Below, in pieces: positions 11,552-48,354 of a stretch of DNA of 64,000 nucleotides. A model generated the notes under the pieces. The model worked only from the letters and a program-made list of their open reading frames with translations. It made no database searches and was not told where the DNA came from. The position numbers and the translations under genes were made by a program. This DNA comes from Fulvimarina pelagi HTCC2506 (lineage in GTDB: Bacteria > Pseudomonadota > Alphaproteobacteria > Rhizobiales > Rhizobiaceae): contig NZ_DS022272.1 in NCBI RefSeq assembly GCF_000153705.1, positions 2,988,798 through 3,052,797 of the forward strand, written 5' to 3'. Every line of letters starts with the position of its first letter. Position 1 is the stretch's first letter.

Positions 11552-12571
11552 TCAGCCTCGGATGCGCTTCAACAGCCGTTCCACATGCTCGATCGGCGCA
11601 TCCGGCGTGATGCCGTGGCCGAGATTGAAGATGAAAGGTCCGTCCGACAAAGCTTCGAGGATCAGATCGACGCCCTCGTCGAGCGCCCTTCCCCCAGCGA
11701 TCAGCCGCAACGGGTCGAGATTGCCCTGCACGGCGCCGTCCGCCTGAAGCTCCTTGGCGAAGGCGAGGGGCACCTGCCAGTCCATGCCGAGCGCGTCGAC
11801 GCCCGTCTCCTGCCGATAAGTCTTGAGGCGATAGCCGGCGCCCTTGGCAAACCCGATGATCTTGGCGTCGGGGATCGCCGCCCTCACCCGGTCGACGATC
11901 AGCTTCACCGGCGCGACGGCATAGTCGGCAAAACTCTGCTCGTCGAGCACGCCGGCCCATGAGTCGAATATCTGGACACAGTCGGCACCCGCGCGCAGCT
12001 GGCGGATCAGATAATCGGCGCTCATTTCGGCGAGCAGCGTCAGAAGCTGCGCCATCGCTTCCGGGTTATGGTAGCCGAACATCCGGGCCGGCGCCTGATC
12101 AGGCGTCCCATGTCCGGCGATCATATAGGTCGCCACGGTCCAGGGAGCCCCGCAGAAGCCGATCAAGGTGGTTTCCTCAGGGAGTTCCTCGCGAAGCCGC
12201 GCGACCGTCGCTATGACCGGCGCCAGATGCGTCTCGGCAAGGCTCGGATCAAGCCGATCGATCTCGTCCGGCCGGATCGGGTTCATCATCGGGCCTTCGC
12301 CCTTTACGAACTTCACGCCGCGCTGAAGCGCATCCGGGATCACGAGGATATCGGAGAAGAGGATCGAAGCATCAAAGCCGAAACGCCGGATCGGCTGGAG
12401 CGTCACCTCGGTCGCAAAGTCCGGATTGTAGCAGAGATCGAGAAAGCCGCCGGCCTGGGCGCGGGTCTCGCGATATTCCGGCAGATAGCGCCCCGCCTGG
12501 CGCATCAGCCAGATCGGCGGTGGGCCGACGGTCTCCCCTTCCAGCACCTTCACGAGTTTGCGCTCCGCCAT
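11552..12571 (-). CDS. hemE: uroporphyrinogen decarboxylase
   Basis: Cytosolic enzyme decarboxylating uroporphyrinogen III to coproporphyrinogen III in haem synthesis. The 339-residue length is standard. [17 protein letters not shown] is the N-terminal signature with the substrate-binding Arg residues; [13 protein letters not shown] and FDSWAGVL are also family hallmarks. The start at 12571 is supported by a strong ribosome site (GGGGAGGGGGC), while a longer frame from 12697 adds unrelated residues across the AT-rich element. In rhizobia and Caulobacter the chromosomal origin lies just upstream of hemE, which matches the region described next. Confidence 0.96.
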
Positions 12572-13059
12572 CTGCGGCCCCCTCCCCTTAAAGAATCCTT
12601 TCTTAAAAGGATTTATGATTCTTCTTTGACTCGGTGGATTGTGGGAATCCACATCCATGGTCCTGCAGGCGTTTGATCGGCCGGCAATTCGCATCACTCG
12701 TAGCCATGATGAGGCAGGCTGTCGAGGAGAGCGGGGACGGACCAGGAAAAGGTCCAGTTCGAAAGGATCTTAGGCCCTGAACCAAGACCGGTTTACAGTG
12801 TGAAGAACCTGTCGAAACAGGAGGAACGGCGCACAGCTTTCAACAGATTAACGCAACCTGTTTCGACTCCCTTCGAAGAGCCGGGCGATGGGGAAAACTC
12901 GATCCCTATCGACAGAAGCTTCCCGATACCTCTTTACTGTCCCGTCCTCTCCCAATTCGTAAACAAGAGGTTAAAGAATCACGGGAGTGATCGCTCGCGG
13001 ATATTGCATTTGTGTGACGAATCGAGTCCGCTGGAGTTCGGTCGATTGCAAAGAATGTT
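12572..13059. other. oriC: candidate chromosomal replication origin (oriC)
   Basis: A 488-base gap upstream of hemE. Bases 12588-12627 are about three quarters A+T in a GC-rich chromosome, a possible unwinding element, and contain the perfect inverted repeat AATCCTTT-CTTA-AAAGGATT (12594-12613). Eight GANTC sites occur (12593, 12617, 12628, 12645, 12865, 12976, 13019, 13024), where about two are expected. An 11-base inverted repeat GTCGAAACAGG / CCTGTTTCGAC sits at 12811-12821 and 12857-12867. The best DnaA-box-like word is GAATCCACA (12645-12653), only 7 of 9 to the consensus, so DnaA evidence is weak. A parS site abuts the right edge. The position beside hemE matches experimentally mapped alphaproteobacterial origins. 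Confidence 0.5.
12594..12613. repeat. inverted repeat in the AT-rich element upstream of hemE
   Basis: AATCCTTT, spacer CTTA, AAAGGATT: perfect 8-base arms 23 bases upstream of the hemE ATG. It could be an operator of hemE or part of the origin; the T-poor flanks do not suggest a terminator. Confidence 0.6.
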
Positions 13060-13071
13060 TCACGTGAAACG
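13056..13071. other. parS: parS site 2 (15 of 16)
   Basis: TGTTTCACGTGAAACG, one mismatch to the parS consensus at the last base. It overlaps the stop codon (13060-13062) of the 8-oxoguanine deaminase gene and borders the candidate origin. Confidence 0.85.
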
Positions 13072-14397
13072 CTTTGCAGCCTCGCCATGCTCGAAGCGCA
13101 GCCGGGCGATATCCATACCGATCGGTTGACCGTCCCTGACCCGCCACTCACCCTTCACCATCACCCGGTCGGCGGAATGCGCACCGCAGAGAACGAGCGC
13201 CGCGATCGGATCGTGCGCACCGGAAAATCGTAGTTCGTCGAGAGTGAAGAGGGCGAAATCTGCCTGGCGACCGACCGCGATGCGTCCGATATCGCTGCGG
13301 CCGAGACAGGCGGCTGAGCCCTCCGTCGCGAGTTGAAATGCATCGCGGGCGGTCACAGCACTCGCCGAGCGATAGTTGAGCCGGCCGATCATCACCGCGT
13401 GACGAACCTGCTCCATCAGGTTCGAGGCGTCATTCGAGGCCGAGCCGTCGACACCGAGCCCCACCGGCGCTCCGGCGGCCTTCAGCTCGTTGATCGGGCA
13501 GAAGCCCGAGGCAAGCACCGCGTTGAAGGCCGGACAATGGCAGACGCCGACCTTGTGCCTTCCGAGCTTCGTGCATTCCTCCGTTGTGAAGTGGATGCCG
13601 TGGGCGAGCCATGTGCGGGGGCCGAGCCAGCCGACTTCTTCGAGATACTCCACCGGCCGGCAGCCGAAGAGTTCGCGGCAATAGGCGTTCTCGTCCTCGG
13701 TCTCGCCGAGATGGGTGTGGAGGCGGCAGTCGTGCTTCTCGGCGAGCGCCGCGCTCTCCGTCATAAGCGCCTTGGTCACCGAAAAAGGTGAACAGGGCGC
13801 GAGCGCGATCTGCGTCATCGCGCCCTCGGACCCATCGTGATAGCGGCCGATCAGCCGCTCTGCATCGGCGAGGATCGTCTCCTTGTCCTGCACCACGAGA
13901 TCGGGCGGCAGACCGCCGTCCTTCTCCGACAGATCCATCGAGCCGCGCGTCAGCATCACCCGCATTCCGAGGGCTTGCGCCTCCTCTGCCTCGATGTCGA
14001 TGGCGTCGTCGAGCCCGTCCGGGAACAAATAGTGGTGGTCGGCCGCCGTCGTGCAGCCGGACATCAGAAGCTCGGTCAGAGCGAGGCGCACCGAAAGGCG
14101 AAAACTCTCCGGATCGAGCCGCGCCCAGATCGGATAGAGGCTCTTCAGCCAGGGGAAGAGCTCCTTGTCGATCGCGTCCGGATGGGCGCGGGTGAGCGTC
14201 TGGTAGAAGTGGTGATGGGTGTTGATCAGCCCCGGCAGGACAACGTGGTTCGAGGCGTCGAAGGTCTCGTCCACGGGTGCGGCTGGTGCGCCGCCGGACG
14301 GCACCAGTTCGGCGATCCGGCCGTCTTCGACGACAAGACCGCCTCCCGCATTATTCGCGAGGATCGCGAGCGGCGCCTTGACGTAGAGCCTTGTCAC
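13060..14397 (-). CDS. 8-oxoguanine deaminase-like amidohydrolase
   Basis: Metal-dependent deaminase of the cytosine/guanine deaminase branch of the amidohydrolase superfamily; the overall sequence best fits the 8-oxoguanine deaminases (8-oxoguanine to urate + ammonia). Metal and catalytic motifs are visible: NTHHHFYQT near residue 58, [10 protein letters not shown] near 225, LAHGIHFT near 263 and [11 protein letters not shown] near 315. Its 445-residue length is typical. The ATG overlaps the ureG stop as ATGA, so it is the last gene of the ureE-F-G operon, linking purine breakdown with urease. Its stop codon lies inside a parS site. Substrate could also be another guanine or triazine derivative. 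Confidence 0.8.
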
Positions 14398-17477: not shown

Positions 17478-17648
17478 ATGCCATTCACGAAAACTGCGGG
17501 TAAGCGACCAGATGCTCCGGGGAACTGTCCGCAGGGAACGCGCAATGGGGTCCTGATCGCCAATTGCACAATCTGTCCCGGCTGTCTCGATTTGGAGTTT
17601 GCAGCCAAAGATCCTCGCGCGCACCCGGGCCTTCAGAACATGAAGTAG
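17478..17648 (+). CDS. possible small cysteine-rich protein (56 aa)
   Basis: A short frame begins [20 protein letters not shown] and contains [10 protein letters not shown], giving one Cys followed by a CxxCxxC cluster that could bind zinc or an iron-sulfur centre. GAGAGGGAGAGAGC provides a plausible ribosome site before the ATG. Its last 16 bases overlap the convergent end of ureC. Family unknown; it could be an unused frame, though the cysteine spacing and ribosome site argue for a real small gene. Confidence 0.4.
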
Positions 17649-19345
17649 CGCTGGGCCATGGCGAGTTCCTTTGCGGGCTCGCAGGTGAGGAGTTCGCCAT
17701 TGGCGCGCACCTCGTAGGTTTCCGGGTTCACCTCGACCTCAGGCGTCATGTCGTTGAGGATCATCGATGCCTTGGAGATGCCGCCGCGGGTGTTCTCGAC
17801 GGCGAGGAACGTCTTCTCGCATCCGAGCTGGTCTTTCAGGCCGGCGTCAAGCGCAGCCTTTGAAACGAAGGTCGCACCTGTCGCGCCGATCGCCTTGCCG
17901 AAGGCGCCGAACATCGGACGGTAATGGACCGGCTGGGGAGTCGGAATCGAGGCGTTCGGATCGCCCATGGGCGCTGCCGCGATCATCCCGCCGATCAGCA
18001 CCATCATCGGCTTGACGCCGAAAAAGGCGGGATCCCAGAGCACGAGATCGGCCCGCTTGCCGACTTCGATCGAGCCGATCTCCTTCGACATGCCCTGAGC
18101 AATCGCCGGATTGATCGTGTATTTCGCGACATAACGCCGGGCCCGCAGATTGTCGTTGTCGCCGGTCTCGTCCGGCAGACGGCCGCGCTGGCGTTTCATC
18201 TTGTCCGCCGTCTGCCATGTGCGGATGATCACCTCGCCGACGCGCCCCATGGCCTGTGAGTCCGACGCGATGATCGAGAAGGCGCCCATGTCGTGGAGGA
18301 TGTCCTCCGCCGCGATCGTCTCCTTGCGGATGCGGCTTTCGGCGAATGCGATATCCTCGGGGATCGAGGCGTCGAGGTGGTGGCACACCATGAGCATGTC
18401 GAGATGCTCCTCGAGCGTGTTCACCGTGTAGGGCCGCGTCGGATTGGTGGAGGAGGGGAGAACGTTCGGCAGCCCGCAGACCTTGATGATGTCCGGCGCA
18501 TGACCGCCGCCCGCGCCTTCCGTGTGGAAGGCGTGGATCGTGCGGCCTTTGAAAGCGTCCACCGTGTTCTCGACGAAGCCGGATTCGTTGAGCGTGTCCG
18601 TATGGATCAGAACCTGAACGTCGTAGTCGTCGGCGACGGTAAGGCAGCAGTCGATCGCGGCCGGCGTCGTACCCCAGTCCTCGTGCAGTTTCAGCGCGCA
18701 GGCGCCGCCTTCGACCATCTCCTCGAGCGCAGTTGGCAGGGACGCGTTGCCCTTGCCGGAAAAGCCGAGATTCATCGGGAAAACATCGGTAGCCTGCAGC
18801 ATCTTGCCAAGATGCCAGGGACCTGGTGTGCAAGTGGTCGCGAGCGTGCCGTGGGCAGGGCCCGTTCCACCGCCAAGCATTGTGGTGACGCCTGAAAAGA
18901 GCGCCTCCTCGATCTGCTGCGGACAGATGAAGTGGATGTGGCTGTCGAAACCGCCGGCCGTGACGATCTTACCTTCCGCCGCGATTGCCTCGGTGCCAGG
19001 TCCGATGACGATATCGACATTCGGCTGGGTGTCGGGATTGCCAGCCTTGCCGATCTTGGCGATGCGCCCGTCCTTGAGTCCGATATCGGCCTTGTAGATG
19101 CCGGTGTGGTCGAGGATCAACGCGTTGGTTATCACCGTGTCGACAGCGCCGTCGGCCCGCGAATGCTGGGACTGGCCCATACCGTCGCGGATCACCTTGC
19201 CGCCGCCGAACTTCACCTCCTCGCCATAGGTGGTGAGGTCCTTTTCCACCTCAATGAAGAGTTCTGTATCGGCAAGCCGCACCCTGTCGCCCGTGGTGGG
19301 GCCGAACATTGCGGCATAGGACGAGCGGGCGATCGTAGTGGGCAT
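17633..19345 (-). CDS. ureC: urease subunit alpha (catalytic)
   Basis: Catalytic nickel subunit of urease, urea + water to ammonia and carbamate. At 570 residues it is full length. Metal motifs are intact: [14 protein letters not shown] near residue 131, the carbamylated lysine in [36 protein letters not shown] and the flap-side [20 protein letters not shown]. The start [17 protein letters not shown] has ribosome site ACGAGG. The structural partners ureA and ureB and the accessory ureD, normally upstream, are not in this window: the 309 bases upstream hold no urease-like frame and the next gene reads the other way. Confidence 0.97.
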
Positions 19346-22961: not shown

Positions 22962-22977
22962 TGTTACACGTGAAACA
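22962..22977. other. parS: parS site 3 (15 of 16)
   Basis: TGTTACACGTGAAACA differs from the parS consensus at one inner base. It overlaps the last codons and stop of the truncated Uma2 gene. Confidence 0.75.
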
Positions 22978-23365: not shown

Positions 23366-23477
23366 CGGGCTCTCGACCTGCGACGCTCCATTGTGACAGC
23401 CGCATGCAGCGATTATAGAGACCAAAACGCTGAAATTGAAGCTGACGGAACACTCGGGAAATCCTGAGGAATATGCC

Positions 23478-25373
23478 ATGACCAACCCGCACGCCAATCG
23501 AGGTTTTCCGGACAGCGCCGATGTTGTCGTCATCGGCGGCGGTCATGCCGGATGCGAAGCGGCAAGCGCCTCGGCGCGATTTGGAGCCACGACGGTCCTC
23601 GTTACCCATCGCTTCGATACGATTGGCGCGATGAGCTGCAATCCGGCGATCGGCGGCATCGGCAAGGGCCATCTCGTGCGAGAGATCGATGCGCTCGGCG
23701 GGCTGATGGGTGAGGTGGCGGATGCCGCCGGCATACAGTTTCGCATGCTGAACCGATCCAAGGGCCCAGCGGTGCACGGCCCGCGCACCCAGGCCGACCG
23801 CAAGCTCTATGGCGAAGCCATGCAGGCAAAGATCGCCGCACATGCGAACCTGTCGGTCGTCGAAGGCGATGTCTTCGACCTCGATTTGACACCGGAAGGC
23901 GAGGTTCAGGGCGTGATCTTCGCAGACGGGCGGCGGCTCGCCTGTGGCGCGGTGGTGCTTACGACGGGGACCTTCCTCTCCGGCCTCATCCATATCGGTA
24001 CGCAGCGAATTCCGGCGGGTCGGATGGGTGAGGACCCCTCCGTCGGCCTTTCGGGAACGCTGAAGCGCCTCGGTCTTTCGCTTGGGCGGCTGAAGACTGG
24101 CACGCCGGCCCGGCTAGACGGTCGCACTATTGATTGGGCATCCATCGAAAGCCAGGCGGCGGACGACGAGCCGGTGCCGTTCTCCTATCTGACCGACCGG
24201 ATCACGAACCGCCAGATCGAGTGCGGTGTGACCCGCACGACGCCCGATACCCATCGGATCATTCGGGATAATATCCGCAAGTCAGCGCTCTATTCCGGGC
24301 AGATCGAGGGGGTTGGCCCGCGCTATTGCCCGTCGATCGAGGACAAGATTGTCAAGTTCGGCGATCGCGACGGCCATCAGGTGTTTCTGGAGCCGGAAGG
24401 TCTCGACGATCACACGGTCTATCCGAACGGTCTCTCGACATCGATGCCGGAAGATGTGCAACTCGAATTCCTACGGTCGATCCCCGGGCTTGAGAATGTC
24501 GAGATTCTGAGGGCGGGCTATGCGATTGAATATGATCATATCGACCCACGTGAACTCGATCGGCATCTCGCCGTTCGAAAGGCGAGGGGGCTTTACCTCG
24601 CGGGCCAGATCAACGGTACGACGGGCTATGAGGAAGCAGCCGCACAGGGCTTATTAGCCGGCTTGAATGCAGCCTGCTTAGCCGGCAAAGCGGCGCCCGT
24701 CGCCGTTGGCCGGGCCGATGCTTATCTTGGCGTGATGGTGGACGATCTGACCCGGACCGGCGTCACTGAACCCTATCGCATGTTCACCTCCCGGGCCGAG
24801 TTCCGCCTGTCGCTACGCGCCGACAACGCGGACCGCCGCCTGACGCCGCTCGCCGTCGAACTAGGGATCGCGGGTGCTGAGCGGACCGAGCGCTTCCTGA
24901 AAAGCGAGGAAGGTCTTGCCAAAGGCCGCGCTTTGCTTGAAGAGCGAACCTTGACGCCGAACGAGGCTGCCAAGCATGGGCTATCGCTAAACAAGGATGG
25001 CCGGCGGCGTTCGGCCTGGCAACTTCTCTCTCAGGCGGGGATCGATCTCGGTCGGCTGTCGGCGATCTGGCCGGAACTTGGCAAGATCGCCGGGAAGACG
25101 CGCGAGCGGACCGAAATCGAGGCCGCCTACGACGTCTATTTGGATCGCCAGAGGAAGGACCAGGACCGTCTTCGCCGTGACGAGAACCGCGTAATTCCGA
25201 CGGAGCTCGATCTGAAAAGCCTGCCCGGTCTCTCGAACGAACTCCGCCAAAAGCTCGCGAGCCGGCGCCCGCAGACACTTGCCGAGGCCGAGCGGATAGA
25301 CGGCATGACGCCGGCGGCGCTCGCGCTCATCCTCGTTGCGATCCGGCGCAACGAAGTGAAACATGCGGCCTGA
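23478..25373 (+). CDS. mnmG: tRNA uridine-5-carboxymethylaminomethyl modification enzyme MnmG
   Basis: FAD protein that with MnmE makes the cmnm5U34 modification in tRNA anticodons. The 631-residue protein has the dinucleotide fold [13 protein letters not shown] near residue 15, the MnmG signature [23 protein letters not shown] in part, the catalytic-loop segment [13 protein letters not shown], and a C-terminal helical domain ending in [14 protein letters not shown]. The ATG at 23478 has the GAGGA ribosome site; a longer frame from 23436 does not. mnmE, usually directly upstream, is absent here. It overlaps rsmG by 11 bases. Confidence 0.96.
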
Positions 25374-26109
25374 TCGCTCGCGCCGAAACAGCGAGAGCCG
25401 GACGCCGTCCAGCCGCAGTCAGCTATCTGCGCTGTCCGAGACACGTCCGCCGAAATCGCTGGGTATTGAGCCCGCAGAACTCGCGCGTCTTCAAGCGGAA
25501 GACCGTGAGCGCTTTACAGCCCGCTTCGATGTTTCACGTGAAACACTGACGGCGCTCGATCGCTATGTCGCGATGCTCACCGACTGGCAGACGCGGATGA
25601 ACCTCGTCGCGCCCTCGACGCTCGCGACGGTCTGGGAACGGCATATCGCAGACTCCCTGCAGCTCGAAGCGTTTCTGCCGCCGTTTGAGACTGGCGCCGA
25701 TCTTGGTTCCGGCGGCGGTTTGCCTGGGATCGTTATCGCGATCATGCGTCCGGAAGCGAAGGTGCACCTGGTCGAGAGCGTCGGCAAGAAGGCGACCTTT
25801 CTGCGCGCGGTGGCGGACGAGCTCGGCCTCAATACTCATGTGCACGCCCGGCGGATCGAGGCGTCGGGGCATGCTCTGAGGCAGTCCGAAGTGGTGACGG
25901 CCCGCGCTGTTGCGTCTCTGGACAGGCTCCTTGGGCTCGTCTCGCCGCATATTTCGGCCGAGACTCGCTGCTTTTTCGCAAAGGGAGCAAGCCATGAAGT
26001 GGAGATTGCGGCGGCGCGGGAGCGGTGGTCGTTCGAATTGAAGACGCACGGTTCGCAATTGGTGGAGGGCTCGGTGATCCTCGAACTGAGCGCGGTTCGA
26101 CCGCTCTGA
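25363..26109 (+). CDS. rsmG: 16S rRNA (guanine527-N7)-methyltransferase RsmG
   Basis: SAM-dependent methyltransferase of 16S rRNA. The SAM motif [16 protein letters not shown] and the following [15 protein letters not shown] are typical. The N-terminus carries an Arg/Ser-rich extension of about 40 residues before the conserved region ([19 protein letters not shown]); a start further in is possible but no alternative ATG is well placed. It overlaps the mnmG stop. A perfect parS is embedded in its coding sequence (codons for DVSRETL), a known arrangement in rhizobia. Confidence 0.94.
25530..25545. other. parS: parS site 4 (exact consensus)
   Basis: TGTTTCACGTGAAACA, identical to consensus, inside rsmG and 0.8 kb upstream of parA. 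Confidence 0.92.
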
Positions 26110-26365
26110 CCGGGATTCACGGCCGAAATGAAGGGCTCACCGAGGCGTTGAGCGGTGGATGATGCGTGGCTTGGGATTCCGTTGCCGTAGGATGCTGGCT
26201 ATGGTCTTCGATCAAGACCGGTAAAACGAAGCGTGGCATGGCATCGATGAGTCCGATGCTGTAAAGCCGCGTTGCGAATAAGATCGAGGCTGCCGCGCCT
26301 ATTAGAACAGCTTGCGGCGAGGATATGAAGCCTCTGGTTAGACCGATGAGGACGATGAAAACGCC

Positions 26366-27151
26366 ATGCGCGTCATCACGATAGCCAATCAGAAGGGCGG
26401 GGTAGGAAAGACCACAACCGCCATCAATCTGGCCACGGCTCTCGCTGCGGTCGGCAAGCGCGTGCTGCTCGTCGATCTCGATCCGCAGGGCAATGCCTCG
26501 ACGGGGCTTGGGATCGAGAAGGACGACCGGGAGGTCTCGTCCTACGACCTGCTCACCGAGCGGGCTTCGGTCGAGGAGGCTGCGATCCCGACGGCGGTGC
26601 CGGAACTCTCCCTCATTCCATCGACACTTGATCTGCTCGGTCTCGAAATGGAGATCTCGAGTGCCGATCGCCGGGCCTACCGGTTGCGTGATGCGCTGCG
26701 TGAGCACGAAAAGCGGGAGGCTCGGTTCGACTTCGTGCTGATGGACTGCCCGCCGTCGCTGAATCTTTTGACGATCAACGCAATGGCCGCAGCCGATTCG
26801 GTGCTCGTGCCGTTGCAATGCGAGTTCTTCGCCCTGGAGGGCCTCAGCCAACTGCTTCAGACAGTCGAAGAGGTGCGCGACAGCCTGAACCCCGAACTCG
26901 ACCTGCACGGCATCGTGCTGACCATGTTCGACGGGCGCAACAACCTTGCGGCACAGGTCGTGCGGGATGTGCGGGCCTACATGGGCGAGAGCGTCTACCA
27001 GACGGTGATCCCGCGCAATGTGCGCGTTTCAGAAGCGCCGTCTTTCGGCAAGCCGGCGATCCTCTACGACATGAAATGCCCCGGCAGCCAGGCCTATATC
27101 GCGCTCGCATCCGAAGTCATTCAGCGAGAGAAAAGGCTTGCGGCGGCATGA
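26366..27151 (+). CDS. parA: chromosome partitioning ATPase ParA
   Basis: Walker-type ATPase that moves ParB-parS complexes to segregate new origins. The 261-residue sequence starts directly with the deviant Walker A motif ANQKGGVGKTTTAINLA, then LVDLDPQGNASTGLG (A') and FVLMDCPPSLNLLTINA (Walker B). This short form lacks the N-terminal HTH of plasmid type Ia proteins, as in chromosomal ParA/Soj. The 256-base gap after rsmG holds no gene and probably the parAB promoter. parB overlaps its stop as ATGA. Confidence 0.97.
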   Translation: MRVITIANQKGGVGKTTTAINLATALAAVGKRVLLVDLDPQGNASTGLGIEKDDREVSSYDLLTERASVEEAAIPTAVPELSLIPSTLDLLGLEMEISSADRRAYRLRDALREHEKREARFDFVLMDCPPSLNLLTINAMAAADSVLVPLQCEFFALEGLSQLLQTVEEVRDSLNPELDLHGIVLTMFDGRNNLAAQVVRDVRAYMGESVYQTVIPRNVRVSEAPSFGKPAILYDMKCPGSQAYIALASEVIQREKRLAAA

Positions 27152-28131
27152 CGAAGAGACCTGAGCAGGCAGCCCGCAAAGACGACGGAACGACAGGGAT
27201 GAGCGAAGATCGATCACGCCAGCGGTTGGGGCGGGGCCTCGCGGCCCTCATCGGCGGCGGGGAGACCCATGGCGGCTTCCAGCCGAGGCAGCGCGATCGT
27301 GAGGAAGCTGTGCGGCCCGATCGGCAGGTACCGCTCGAAGCGGTCCTCGCCAATCCGAACAATCCGCGCCGCACTTTCAGCGAAGCGGACATCGCCGATC
27401 TCGCACAGTCGGTGAAAAAGCACGGCATTGTGCAGCCGTTGCTCGTACGGCCCAATCCCGACAGGCCCGAGACCTTCGAAATTGTCGCCGGTGAGCGACG
27501 CTTCCGGGCGGCAAAGGCTGCTGGTCTTGAAAAGATTCCTGTCGTCGTGCGTGACATCGACGATCGCCAGTCCATCGAGATCGCGCTGATCGAGAACGTC
27601 CAACGCACCGACCTCAATGCCATCGAGGAGGCGCTCGCATACGAACGCCTGATCGACGAGCACGGCTACACCCAGGCCGACCTTGCCGAGGCGCTGGCTA
27701 AGAGCCGTAGCCATGTGGCGAACATGCTGCGGCTGTTGAACCTGCCCGACGTCGTGCGCAAGATGGTGGTCGACGGCGACCTCTCCGCCGGCGCGGCGCG
27801 AACGCTGATCGGCTCGGACGATCCGGAAACGGTCGCGCGGCTGATCGTCAAGGACGGACTAAGCGTGCGTGAGGCAGAGGAACTTGCTCGTTCCACAGGC
27901 GCCGCAAATTCGGGCGAGGGGGTGAACGATCTTGGTGAGGGATCGGGAACTTCGGCCGCGAGGAAGCGGACGCCATCCGCGGAGATGGCGGAGATCGAGC
28001 AACGGCTCGCCGATCATCTGGCGATGAACGTCGCTCTCAAGGGCAAGCCCTCGAAGGGCAGCCTGAAGATCGATTACAGGTCGGCCGAAGAACTGAGTCA
28101 CATTCTGCAGCGTCTGGGGCTGGCAGGATAG
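27148..28131 (+). CDS. parB: chromosome partitioning protein ParB
   Basis: CTP-dependent clamp that loads at parS and spreads. After the N-terminal ParA-interacting segment (RQRLGRGLAALIG) comes the CTP-binding ParB/Srx domain (PNNPRRTFSEADIADLAQSV, GERRFRAAKAAGL, ENVQRTDLNAIEEA), the HTH (YTQADLAEALAKSRSHVANM) and a C-terminal dimer domain (GSLKIDYRSAEELSHIL). I use the ATG overlapping parA; MSEDRSRQRL 51 bases further in is an alternative. Four parS sites in this window are its targets. holA, often next in rhizobia, is not present. Confidence 0.97.
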   Translation: MTKRPEQAARKDDGTTGMSEDRSRQRLGRGLAALIGGGETHGGFQPRQRDREEAVRPDRQVPLEAVLANPNNPRRTFSEADIADLAQSVKKHGIVQPLLVRPNPDRPETFEIVAGERRFRAAKAAGLEKIPVVVRDIDDRQSIEIALIENVQRTDLNAIEEALAYERLIDEHGYTQADLAEALAKSRSHVANMLRLLNLPDVVRKMVVDGDLSAGAARTLIGSDDPETVARLIVKDGLSVREAEELARSTGAANSGEGVNDLGEGSGTSAARKRTPSAEMAEIEQRLADHLAMNVALKGKPSKGSLKIDYRSAEELSHILQRLGLAG

Positions 28132-44973: not shown

Positions 44974-46233
44974 ATGGGACAGACCAGCCCGATGACGACG
45001 CCTTCGACCGCCAGCGCCGGCTCCGAAACCCGGCTTGCCACCATTCTCGCGATTTCCGCCGGGTGCCTGATCGCGCTGCTCACCTTCGGCCCACGTTCCG
45101 CGATCGGCTTCTTCCAGCTGCCGATGATCACCGATCGCAGCTGGACCCGCGAGGACTTCGCGCTCGCCATCGCGATCCAGAACCTTTTCTGGGGCGCGGG
45201 CCAGCCGATCTTCGGCGCGATAGCCGACAAGTTCGGCACGGCGAAGGTGCTCGTTCTCTCCGGCCTCCTCTATGCCTCAGGGCTTGCCGTGACGGCGATT
45301 GGCGAAGCACCGATCTGGCTCCTCATCGGGCAGGGGCTGCTGGTCGGCCTCGGCGTCGCGGCCGGTTCCTTCGGTATCGTGCTCGCGGCCTTTGCCCGGC
45401 GGGTGACGCCCGAGCAGCGCTCCTTCGTCTTCGGCCTCGGTACGGCGGCGGGTTCGGCCGGGATGTTCATCTTCGCGCCCTTCACGCGTGGCCTGATCGA
45501 CGCCTTCGGCTGGGTCGACGCCCTCTTCATCATGGCCGGAACCATGCTGATCATTCCGTTTCTCGCCGTTGCGTTGAAGGGCGCGCCTAAGGTGGGGTCG
45601 GCGCTCTCGACCAACCAGATCGAGCAGACCATGGGCGAGGCCCTGCGCGAGGCTTTCGCGACGCGCAGCTATGTATTGTTGACGAGCGGTTTCTTCGTCT
45701 GCGGTTTCCAGGTAGCCTTCATCACCGCACATTACCCCGCCTTTCTCGCCGATCGGGGCATCGATCCCTATTGGGCGGTGGTCGGCATGGCCCTGATCGG
45801 CTTTTTCAACATCATCGGCTCGCTCGGCTCCGGCGTCATCGGGCAGAAAAGTCCCAAGCCGATCCTCCTCGCCCTTATCTATATCGGCCGTTCGATCGCG
45901 GTGGCGGCATTTCTCCTGATGCCGATCACGCCGGCGAGCGTCGTCATTTTCTCGGCCGTCATGGGCGTTCTCTGGCTCTCCACCGTGCCGCCGACAAACG
46001 CCCTCGTCGCGATCATGTTCGGCACGAAATATCTCGGGCTGCTGGGTGGTACGGTATTCTTCTCCCACCAGGTCGGCTCGTTCCTCGGGGTCTGGCTGGG
46101 CGGCTATCTGCGCGAGACCACCGGGAGCTACGACCCCGTCTGGTGGCTAGGCGTCGCACTCGGCGTCTTCGCCGCTATCGTTCACTGGCCGATCGAGGAG
46201 AAGGCCGCGCCGAGGCTCAACCCTGCGACGTGA
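44974..46233 (+). CDS. MFS transporter, monocarboxylate/oxalate-antiporter-like
   Basis: Inner-membrane major facilitator of about 419 residues and twelve helices. GCLIALLTFGPRSAIGFFQL starts helix 1, GAIADKFGTAKVLVLSGLL is the MFS loop 2-3 signature and RSFVFGLGTAAGSAGMFIF lies in helix 5. The pattern resembles the MCT/oxalate-formate antiporter branch. Start is uncertain: 44920, 44974 and 44992 are in frame; 44974 has a weak ribosome site. Followed after 15 bases by a DMT transporter gene. Confidence 0.85.
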   Translation: MGQTSPMTTPSTASAGSETRLATILAISAGCLIALLTFGPRSAIGFFQLPMITDRSWTREDFALAIAIQNLFWGAGQPIFGAIADKFGTAKVLVLSGLLYASGLAVTAIGEAPIWLLIGQGLLVGLGVAAGSFGIVLAAFARRVTPEQRSFVFGLGTAAGSAGMFIFAPFTRGLIDAFGWVDALFIMAGTMLIIPFLAVALKGAPKVGSALSTNQIEQTMGEALREAFATRSYVLLTSGFFVCGFQVAFITAHYPAFLADRGIDPYWAVVGMALIGFFNIIGSLGSGVIGQKSPKPILLALIYIGRSIAVAAFLLMPITPASVVIFSAVMGVLWLSTVPPTNALVAIMFGTKYLGLLGGTVFFSHQVGSFLGVWLGGYLRETTGSYDPVWWLGVALGVFAAIVHWPIEEKAAPRLNPAT

Positions 46234-46248
46234 GCTTCACGCACAACA

Positions 46249-47172
46249 ATGGCTGATCTGAAGGGCGATGCGGGTCGCCGCACCGCGCTGATCGCCAGCC
46301 TGATCGTCGTTGGGACGGGCGCGCTCTGGGGGTTCTACTGGTACCCTGTCCGCCGTCTCGACGCACTCGGGCTTTCGGGCGCGTGGGGTTCGCTTGCAAT
46401 CGTCGCCAGTGCCGCGGTCCTGCTTCTGCCGCTCGCCGTCATGCGACGCGAGCGGCTCGCGCGAGCGGGCTTCCCGGCATTGGCTTCGATCGCGATTGGC
46501 GGGGCGGCCTTCGCCTTCTATTCGGTCGGTTTCGTCTACGGCCGTGTCGCGATCATCATCCTGCTGTTCTTCCTGACCCCTGTCTGGTCGACGCTGATCG
46601 GCCGCTTCGTGATGGGCTGGCCCATCACCGGGCTGCGCATCGCGGCGATCGGGGTCGGCCTCGCCGGGCTCGGCGTCATGCTCGGGGCGGAGGGCGAGAT
46701 CCCAATCCCGCGCGGTACGGGGGAATGGCTGGCGCTCGTCTCCGGCATTCTCTGGTCGATCTCGACCACCGGCATGCGAGCGAATGCGCCGCTCGGCCCC
46801 GCGGAGTCCGCCTTTGTCTTCGCATTCGGCGCTTCTGTGGGCGCGCTCCTCCTCGCGCCCACGCTCGAACCGTTCCCGACCGGTATCGGTGGCGATAAAT
46901 TCGTCGTGGCTTTTGGATGGGCCGTTTTCGCCGGAGCGCTCTGGTGGGGCCTCTCCATGGCCGCTCTCATCTGGGCGGCATCGCGCCTGGAGCCTGCACG
47001 CGTCGGCATTCTCCTGATGGCCGAGGTGCTGATCGGCGCGCTTTCAGCCGCATGGTTGGCGGGCGAAGCGCTCGGCACGCTGGAACTCGCGGGTGGAGCG
47101 CTGGTGCTGATCGCCGGCATACTGGAAATCTGGCCGAGTAAAGAGGAGCCTCAGCCGTCATCGGTTCGATAG
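46249..47172 (+). CDS. DMT superfamily (EamA) transporter
   Basis: A 307-residue membrane protein with ten predicted helices arranged as two EamA repeats. The first includes TGALWGFYWYPVRRLDALGL and PALASIAIGGAAFAFYSVGF, the second ALVSGILWSISTTGMRANAP and LIAGILEIW. Metabolite or drug exporter of unknown substrate. Begins 15 bases after the MFS gene, so probably co-transcribed. Its last 22 bases overlap the convergent thioesterase gene. Confidence 0.87.
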   Translation: MADLKGDAGRRTALIASLIVVGTGALWGFYWYPVRRLDALGLSGAWGSLAIVASAAVLLLPLAVMRRERLARAGFPALASIAIGGAAFAFYSVGFVYGRVAIIILLFFLTPVWSTLIGRFVMGWPITGLRIAAIGVGLAGLGVMLGAEGEIPIPRGTGEWLALVSGILWSISTTGMRANAPLGPAESAFVFAFGASVGALLLAPTLEPFPTGIGGDKFVVAFGWAVFAGALWWGLSMAALIWAASRLEPARVGILLMAEVLIGALSAAWLAGEALGTLELAGGALVLIAGILEIWPSKEEPQPSSVR

Positions 47173-47597
47173 CGGTCCAGCTTTTCGCGAACCGCTCCGG
47201 GGATCGCGCAGGATCTGTGAGAGCGGGCTTCCACGAACACCTCGACCGTCCGATAGATTGCGTGGACTTCGCCGGTCCGATATGTGCCGAGCGTCAGCTC
47301 CAGCGTGACGCTCTTTCCGCCGATGCGGGCGATCTTGCCCTTGATCCACGTGCAGTCGCCGGCAAGCAGCTCCTGCTGGAACTCGGTCTCTGCCTTCAGC
47401 GTGACCGTGTGAACGCCGTGGGTCTCCGTCAACGCCCGCATCGAGAGACCGGCCTTTTCCCAAAAGAGGAACGAGGCGTCGTCGAAGACGGGCGCGTACC
47501 AGCGCACGTTCATGTGGCCGAACTGATCGAGATGCCAGGGATGGACGACCGATCCGCCGAGATCGACGGCTTTCCACGCATTTTCGTTTTCTGCCAT
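47151..47597 (-). CDS. hotdog-fold acyl-CoA thioesterase (4HBT family)
   Basis: A 148-residue hotdog protein. VVHPWHLDQFGHMNVRWYAPVFDDASFLFW is the 4HBT signature with the catalytic Asp in HLDQFGHMN; FQQELLAGDCTWIKGKIARIGGKSV is the second strand set. The ATG at 47597 has GGGAGGGG as ribosome site, upstream of which the frame is not conserved. Likely hydrolyses acyl-CoA thioesters or an aromatic-CoA; substrate unknown. Confidence 0.85.
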   Translation of the reverse strand: MAENENAWKAVDLGGSVVHPWHLDQFGHMNVRWYAPVFDDASFLFWEKAGLSMRALTETHGVHTVTLKAETEFQQELLAGDCTWIKGKIARIGGKSVTLELTLGTYRTGEVHAIYRTVEVFVEARSHRSCAIPGAVREKLDRYRTDDG

Positions 47598-47628
47598 CTG
47601 CCCCTCCCGATCGCCGCTACCGGCCAGT

Positions 47629-48354
47629 CTAGCCGGAAGCGCACGCGGCCGAAATAAAGCTGGTTCGTGAGTGGGGCTCGTCGAGGCCGCGCGGTTCGTA
47701 GACATGGCGGGAGAGGAAATAGCGGGTGAGGGTAAAGCCGGTCCTCAGGGTCTCGCCATCTGCCGCACGATCCGTGTCGGTGAGAAAAGCGGGGAGGGCG
47801 AGAAGCTTGTCGTGATAGGGCTCACCCGGCTCGCGGCTCACGGCCCGGCCGCTCTTCGGCGAGACGTAGACCAGGTCTTCCTTCGTCCCGCTCGCCGCGC
47901 ATCGGGCGAGATCGAGGCCGAAGCCCAGTTCTTCCAGAACGGCGAGCTCAAAGCGCAGCATGAGTTCGCCGGCCGTCAGGCGATCCGCATTCAGGTTTTC
48001 GATGAGGACGATGAGCCCGTCGTAAAGCCGCGGATGGGGATCGCGCTCGGCAAGAAGCCGCAGGTGGCTCGCGGCCAGCTGCACGCCATGGAGGCCGACG
48101 GTGCTTTCCATCAGCCCGCCGGCGCGCGAGGCGACAGGCTCCAGCGCGAAGGCTCCCATATGCTCGTCGAGCCGCGCCCGCCAATGGGCCATCACCGAAT
48201 TACCGGGCTGGAGAACGGGCCGCATCGCCTTCGATCGCCCGCCCCGCACGAGCCCCAGATGCCGACCGCGCGAGCGGGTCATCAGTTCGGCGATGACGCT
48301 GGTCTCGCCATGGCGGCGGACACCGAGAACGACGCCTTCCTCACGCCATTCCAT
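47629..48354 (-). CDS. recO: DNA repair protein RecO
   Basis: Recombination mediator of the RecFOR pathway, 241 residues. The N-terminal OB fold reads [39 protein letters not shown] in part, with basic DNA-binding residues; a helical region ([20 protein letters not shown]) and a Cys-containing C-terminal part follow. In many alphaproteobacteria it follows era; here the preceding gene on the strand is prfC, 12 bases upstream, so they are likely co-transcribed. Confidence 0.92.

Follow-up and report, generated by a model that had tools for sequence, protein, structure and literature searches.

The chromosomal origin of replication of Sinorhizobium meliloti, the subject of work by Sibley et al. 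in 2006 that PMC11476347 cites, is reportedly adjacent to hemE, with its DnaA sites mapped. The chromosomal oriC of this species (SMc04880) measures 477 bp, an intergenic length similar to that of the 488-bp gap described here. Origins on the hemE side have been determined experimentally in Caulobacter, as the earlier note on this DNA had mentioned, and by prediction in Rickettsia and Wolbachia (PMC1914354, excerpt). The Caulobacter crescentus origin, Cori, resembles the gap in its position beside hemE, its A+T-rich stretch and its low-affinity DnaA sites (excerpts of PMC1914354 and PMC4468827), as well as in its several GANTC sites (PMC3973325, excerpt), but it contains five CtrA sites (PMC1914354, excerpt), whereas a single CtrA-like site with one mismatch, no more than expected by chance, is present in the gap. 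The predicted Wolbachia origins, like the gap, stayed with hemE after the COG1806 side had been rearranged away; they differ from it in having a CBS-domain gene as the other neighbour and a much higher A+T content (PMC1914354, excerpt). Since a COG1806/PPSR neighbour is also lacking at these predicted origins, it does not appear to be obligatory.

The window, that is, the whole stretch of 64,000 nt that was analysed, corresponds to C4:2988798-3052797 on a 3,705,815-base contig of a 3.8-Mb genome. The closest named relatives by hemE were Jiella, Aurantimonas, Mangrovicella, Aureimonas and one Aurantimonadaceae MAG, and because their identities were 76-82%, the genome was placed in or near Aurantimonadaceae. 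The gap between hemE and the next gene is very probably the DnaA-dependent chromosomal oriC of this Aurantimonadaceae-like bacterium. We infer the role in replication from its position, its conservation, the local skew, the clustering of parS sites and the presence of a CcrM-like gene, all of which were observed. Because hemE-side origins and GANTC sites in Caulobacter origins have already been described, the gap belongs to a known kind of site. The location class is thus known, and the fresher part is a family-wide core with an embedded CcrM site.

Sequence features of the gap

The gap and its flanks contain the following features (window coordinates).

11552-12571, minus strand: hemE, uroporphyrinogen decarboxylase (TIGR01464, 398 bits)
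12572-13059 (488 bp), no strand: predicted oriC, from the hemE start to the 3' end of the 8-oxoguanine deaminase gene, with eight GANTC sites
12588-12627, no strand: A+T-rich stretch, 77.5% over 40 bp, likely unwinding element
12613-12656, minus strand: family-conserved core of about 40 bp, consisting of a degenerate DnaA-like dyad, the CcrM site GAGTC and an array with A at every third base
12622-12634, minus strand: match to CMGASTCWWAGAA, the sole one in the 3.8-Mb genome
12645-12653, plus strand: weak DnaA box, two mismatches, inside the core
12799-12807, minus strand: weak DnaA box, two mismatches
12802-12815 and 12909-12922: arms of an inverted repeat of 14 nt, 79%
12811-12821 and 12857-12867, no strand: arms of a perfect inverted repeat of 11 nt
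12889-12897, minus strand: weak DnaA box, two mismatches, aligned with stronger boxes of relatives
12906-12914, plus strand: weak DnaA box, two mismatches
13019-13028, no strand: two abutting GANTC sites, kept in nearly all of 15 aligned close relatives, window included
13056-13071, no strand: parS-like site at the gap edge, matching at 15 of 16 bases and extending into the 3' end of the deaminase gene
13060-14397, minus strand: 8-oxoguanine deaminase gene (NF006055), its 3' end facing the gap

As in hemE-linked alphaproteobacterial origins, the region is intergenic and directly beside hemE, which TIGR01464 confirmed as the neighbour named in the earlier note. The A+T-rich stretch of about 75%, the two inverted repeats and the flanking parS site reported there were also located, the parS site with one mismatch. 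The gap as a whole has a G+C content of 51%, and an A+T content of at least 77.5% was found in only a 2.6e-5 share of the genome's own 40-bp windows; by composition, the stretch is therefore of the kind expected for oriC unwinding. In most loci of the relatives, the A+T maximum was found at a similar place.

All eight GANTC sites claimed for the gap were counted (12593, 12617, 12628, 12645, 12865, 12976, 13019 and 13024; 8 of the window's 120). Their density was 16.4/kb versus about 1.9/kb in the genome, or about 8 times. Measured against 464 kb of the same genome (the window plus 20 stretches of 20 kb; mean 0.95 GANTC per 488 bp), the gap was the only place with at least 7 sites per 488 bp. 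Dinucleotide shuffles of the gap had a mean of 3.67 sites, an excess of only 2.2-fold, and 8 sites were reached in 47 of 2000 shuffles, which indicates that part of the excess comes from the composition of the gap itself. The excess reported earlier therefore stands, but the figure of about four times falls between the value against the genome and that against the gap's own dinucleotides. The relatives comprised 109 loci (L024-L132) with 106 distinct 300-bp upstream regions; in 104 of these 106, GANTC was above the local background within 500 bp upstream of hemE (mean 5.4 versus 1.1 per 500 bp). A CcrM-like gene with a RAMA domain was found at C4:359255, and among 14 control genomes, matches to the RAMA family were found in Caulobacter alone.

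The DnaA boxes of the gap were weak, as had been noted: none matched TTATCCACA with up to one mismatch, and four did so with two. A box with up to one mismatch was present within 500 bp upstream of hemE in 96 of the 106 distinct relatives; it was absent there in the four closest relatives (L024-L027), and the fifth (L028) has one. An absence of conserved DnaA sites in relatives, which the earlier note had regarded as speaking against an origin, was accordingly not found across the family, but it does describe the window and L024-L027 at this threshold. Since near kin share the weak boxes and the wider family has clear ones, the weakness is not peculiar to this genome. Exact matches to TTATCCACA in the whole genome numbered 4 (reversed control, 12) and were isolated and widely spaced, so a rival cluster of DnaA boxes elsewhere in the genome was rejected on the basis of exact matches.

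CtrA-like and IHF-like sites, with one mismatch allowed, numbered 1 and 2 in the gap, and 1 and 12 in the window versus chance means of 1.76 and 12.84. The window totals were not above chance, and the sites in the gap are too few to support a claim of control by CtrA or IHF.

Skew and segregation sites

The cumulative GC skew over 104 kb had its minimum at 13992, which is 0.9 kb from the gap, and the keto skew had its minimum at 13552; both positions are inside the deaminase gene. Of 20 sampled 20-kb stretches, 16 showed the sign of skew that would follow if replication began here and ended between 1.3 and 1.5 Mb; the position of the terminus was itself read off these 20 stretches, as their second sign switch. 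The sign was wrong in the other four (3.15, 3.5, 0.1 and 2.1 Mb), and the skew was nearly zero at 2.7 Mb. A skew minimum elsewhere, the other result that the earlier note had named as contrary to an origin, was thus looked for locally, and the 104-kb minima were within about 1 kb of the gap. As a separate observation, a strong AT skew (-0.31 to -0.18) extends over about 3 kb at 45001-48000.

Five parS-like sites with up to two mismatches were detected in the genome, all within 39 kb surrounding the gap (C4:2974994-3014342), and the reversed control gave 0. Besides the site at the gap edge, the window contains the following sites and segregation genes.

972-987 (C4:2989769-2989784), no strand: parS site, exact
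22962-22977 (C4:3011759-3011774), no strand: parS-like site, one mismatch
23436-28131, plus strand: gidA, gidB, parA and parB, origin-linked segregation genes, 10-15 kb from the gap
25530-25545 (C4:3014327-3014342), no strand: parS site, exact

The proximity of parS and parAB is consistent with an oriC. An octamer that we take to be KOPS-like was tallied in the sampled sequence, where forward copies outnumbered reverse copies 11 to 3 on the right arm, and the left arm had 5 reverse copies to 1 forward. Together, the skew, the parS cluster, the position of parAB and the DnaA boxes of the relatives support the origin interpretation of the earlier note.

A conserved core upstream of hemE

The core is placed between the DnaA boxes and the A+T-rich stretch. 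Exact CMGASTCWWAGAA gave 37 matches in 61 genomes. Of these, 28, all from family genomes, preceded hemE by 46-103 bp, and the other 9 were elsewhere. The pattern was thus beside hemE in 28 of 37 family genomes and missing there in 9, and in the 24 genomes of the same order outside the family, one of which had no hemE match, the exact pattern was never found beside hemE. The reversed control gave 40 matches in the same 61 genomes; since the pattern is no commoner than its control, only its placement is special. The pattern can serve as a short sequence test, which identified the origin on the hemE side for 28 of the 37 family genomes. Because the methylation site in the core is invariant, a change at this single site would make the action of CcrM at such origins testable. 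Named relatives with the core include species of Rhizobium, Agrobacterium, Ensifer, Mesorhizobium and Ochrobactrum/Brucella. L100, titled Bacillus subtilis SK6B4, has a rhizobial hemE with the core and is probably a mislabelled or contaminated assembly.

The columns of the core were counted in 110 loci, with L080 and L106 swapped for L138 and L139; L051 has no anchor. Identical 30-mers were merged, leaving 82 distinct cores. The GASTC anchor fixes columns 0-7 save for a few choices, and the columns from 8 onward are free. The results showed A at offsets 10, 12, 13, 16 and 19 past the anchor in 82 of 82 cores, and 10, 13, 16 and 19 form a three-base rhythm; where more than one anchor was available (6 loci), the anchor followed by the highest A+T was chosen, a choice that favours this reading. 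A separate column table used a stricter pattern with more columns fixed. In the sample of the genome itself, A occupied all four offsets in 4 of 808 strand readings of GASTC (sites read on both strands), the core included. By eye, the diverged, A+T-rich loci L033, L043, L051 and L074 keep the three-base rhythm with T replacing G, such as AATAATAAG in L051.

The offsets from the core of DnaA boxes with up to one mismatch were tallied in 20-bp bins at 104 of the 110 loci, namely those matching the stricter core pattern. The boxes favoured certain offsets: plus-strand boxes numbered 77 at -260 and 51 at -180, and minus-strand boxes 35 at -220. No clear boxes were found between the core and hemE in the relatives. 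Minus-strand matches at +120 to +139 fall inside hemE and may be explained by conserved hemE codons.

The core was compared with the BUS/DnaA-trio module of Bacillus subtilis and others, as defined in excerpts of PMC8287927 and PMC10721633. Both have A at every third base beside a box-like sequence. In the BUS, however, the 3' end of the trio strand meets the DnaA box, as deduced from the base numbering in these excerpts, whereas in the core the 5' end of the adenine strand is at the box-like sequence and there is no clear box opposite. Despite the rhythm in all 82 distinct cores, the canonical BUS reading was thus rejected, and the core was not classed as a BUS because its polarity is opposite and clear boxes are missing between it and hemE.

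Among the 109 relatives, Pseudaminobacter soli (L080) and Mesorhizobium ephedrae (L106) were the only ones in which the 500 bp upstream of hemE contained neither GANTC nor any stretch of more than 50% A+T. In both, the core is flanked on one side by the PPSR gene (PF03618) and on the other by a PF03653 gene, which we take to be hemJ, and hemE is absent there. The M. ephedrae core matched the pattern exactly, and the P. soli core was one base off and was recognised by eye. In P. soli and M. ephedrae, respectively, the hemE-less core gaps contained 6 and 4 GANTC sites and peaked at 65% and 70% A+T, below the maxima of most relatives; each gap also had two DnaA boxes with up to one mismatch. In both of these genomes, the core follows the place and not hemE.

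The window genome is the converse case, in which hemE stayed. An Ensifer relative (L076) has the same core beside hemE and PPSR as the other neighbour, the ancestral arrangement, whereas the gap has the deaminase gene on that side, weaker DnaA boxes, and no PF03618 match in the whole genome. The two maf-like genes lie over 480 kb from the gap, and in Aurantimonas marina maf is beside the corresponding gap. The region covering window positions 1-28131 and the adjoining L003 (C4:2968798-2988797) is rearranged, with gidAB-parAB on the right and leuS and holA on the left, and hemE is without its usual neighbours on both sides. A congener (G001, locus L141) has yet another right flank, with amidase and peptidase genes.

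In the literature searched, which was judged from listings and did not extend to the text of the S. meliloti origin-mapping work, no published account of a family-wide core with an invariant CcrM site was found, so the core may already be published.

Predicted origin function and alternative explanations

In the predicted origin, DnaA would bind several low-affinity boxes across about 12640-12915 and assemble from there in the direction of the core (12613-12656). Opening would follow in the A+T-rich stretch beside the hemE start (12588-12627), and the helicase would be loaded there. The eight GANTC sites would be methylated by CcrM, their hemi-methylated state once the origin has fired may contribute to the timing of re-initiation, and ParB on the neighbouring parS sites would segregate the new origins. 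DnaA binding, melting and a role for methylation are the predicted steps.

We tentatively extend this scheme to the origins of the Rhizobiaceae (broad sense), although the extension is itself improbable. These origins might share one compact opening module that consists of a degenerate DnaA site, a CcrM site that does not vary (GASTC) and an array of four A-centred triplets (WAG-AAW-YAG-AAR), the array directly adjoining the A+T-rich stretch. Since the CcrM site is exactly between the anchor and the melting array, DnaA loading at the unwinding step would be directly gated by the hemi-methylation that follows firing, a timing like that provided by SeqA but achieved without it. The array would be either a DnaA-trio with its polarity reversed or, if the opposite strand is considered, a T-rich strand like that of E. 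coli.

It is very unlikely that the core and the GANTC sites instead act as a promoter under cell-cycle control (GcrA/CcrM) for hemE or a hemE-hemJ operon, with the true origin elsewhere in the parS region. The core does precede hemE by 46-103 bp in those 28 family genomes where the pattern is exact, and GANTC is about twice as common in the intergenic DNA of Ensifer (PMC8725594, excerpt). A hemE promoter as the sole cause of conservation was nevertheless rejected, as the core persists where hemE has left (2 of 2 genomes). In both genomes it lies upstream of hemJ, and because hemE and hemJ may belong to one operon, a promoter of that operon would fit these two cases. Against a promoter of either kind, 96 of 106 distinct relatives have DnaA boxes alongside the core, the skew minimum and the parS cluster are located here, the window genome has the flanks of hemE rearranged, and the S. 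meliloti oriC intergenic region was used as a transcription-negative control (excerpt of PMC2245857, where the data are not shown).

An origin at least 1 kb away, such as at the skew minimum at 13.5-14 kb, with the gap merely a GANTC-rich neighbour, is slightly less probable still. Such a displacement would agree with the skew minima within the deaminase gene and with the lack of a strong DnaA box in the gap. However, cumulative skew curves do not resolve 1 kb; 7 GANTC sites per 488 bp were reached nowhere else in the 464 kb, and the core pattern, which occurs once in the genome, is conserved in the family at the gap. With the gap as oriC, the start of replication is narrowed to a few hundred bases in a genome where DnaA boxes are weak and the neighbours of the origin have been rearranged.

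A structured RNA in the gap was rejected, since no Rfam match up to E = 1 was found within 12300-13300. Elsewhere in the window, the plus strand at 18904-19190 matched the Rfam family 5_ureB_sRNA with 109 bits, antisense to the urease alpha gene at 17633-19345; this match may merely mirror conserved coding sequence.
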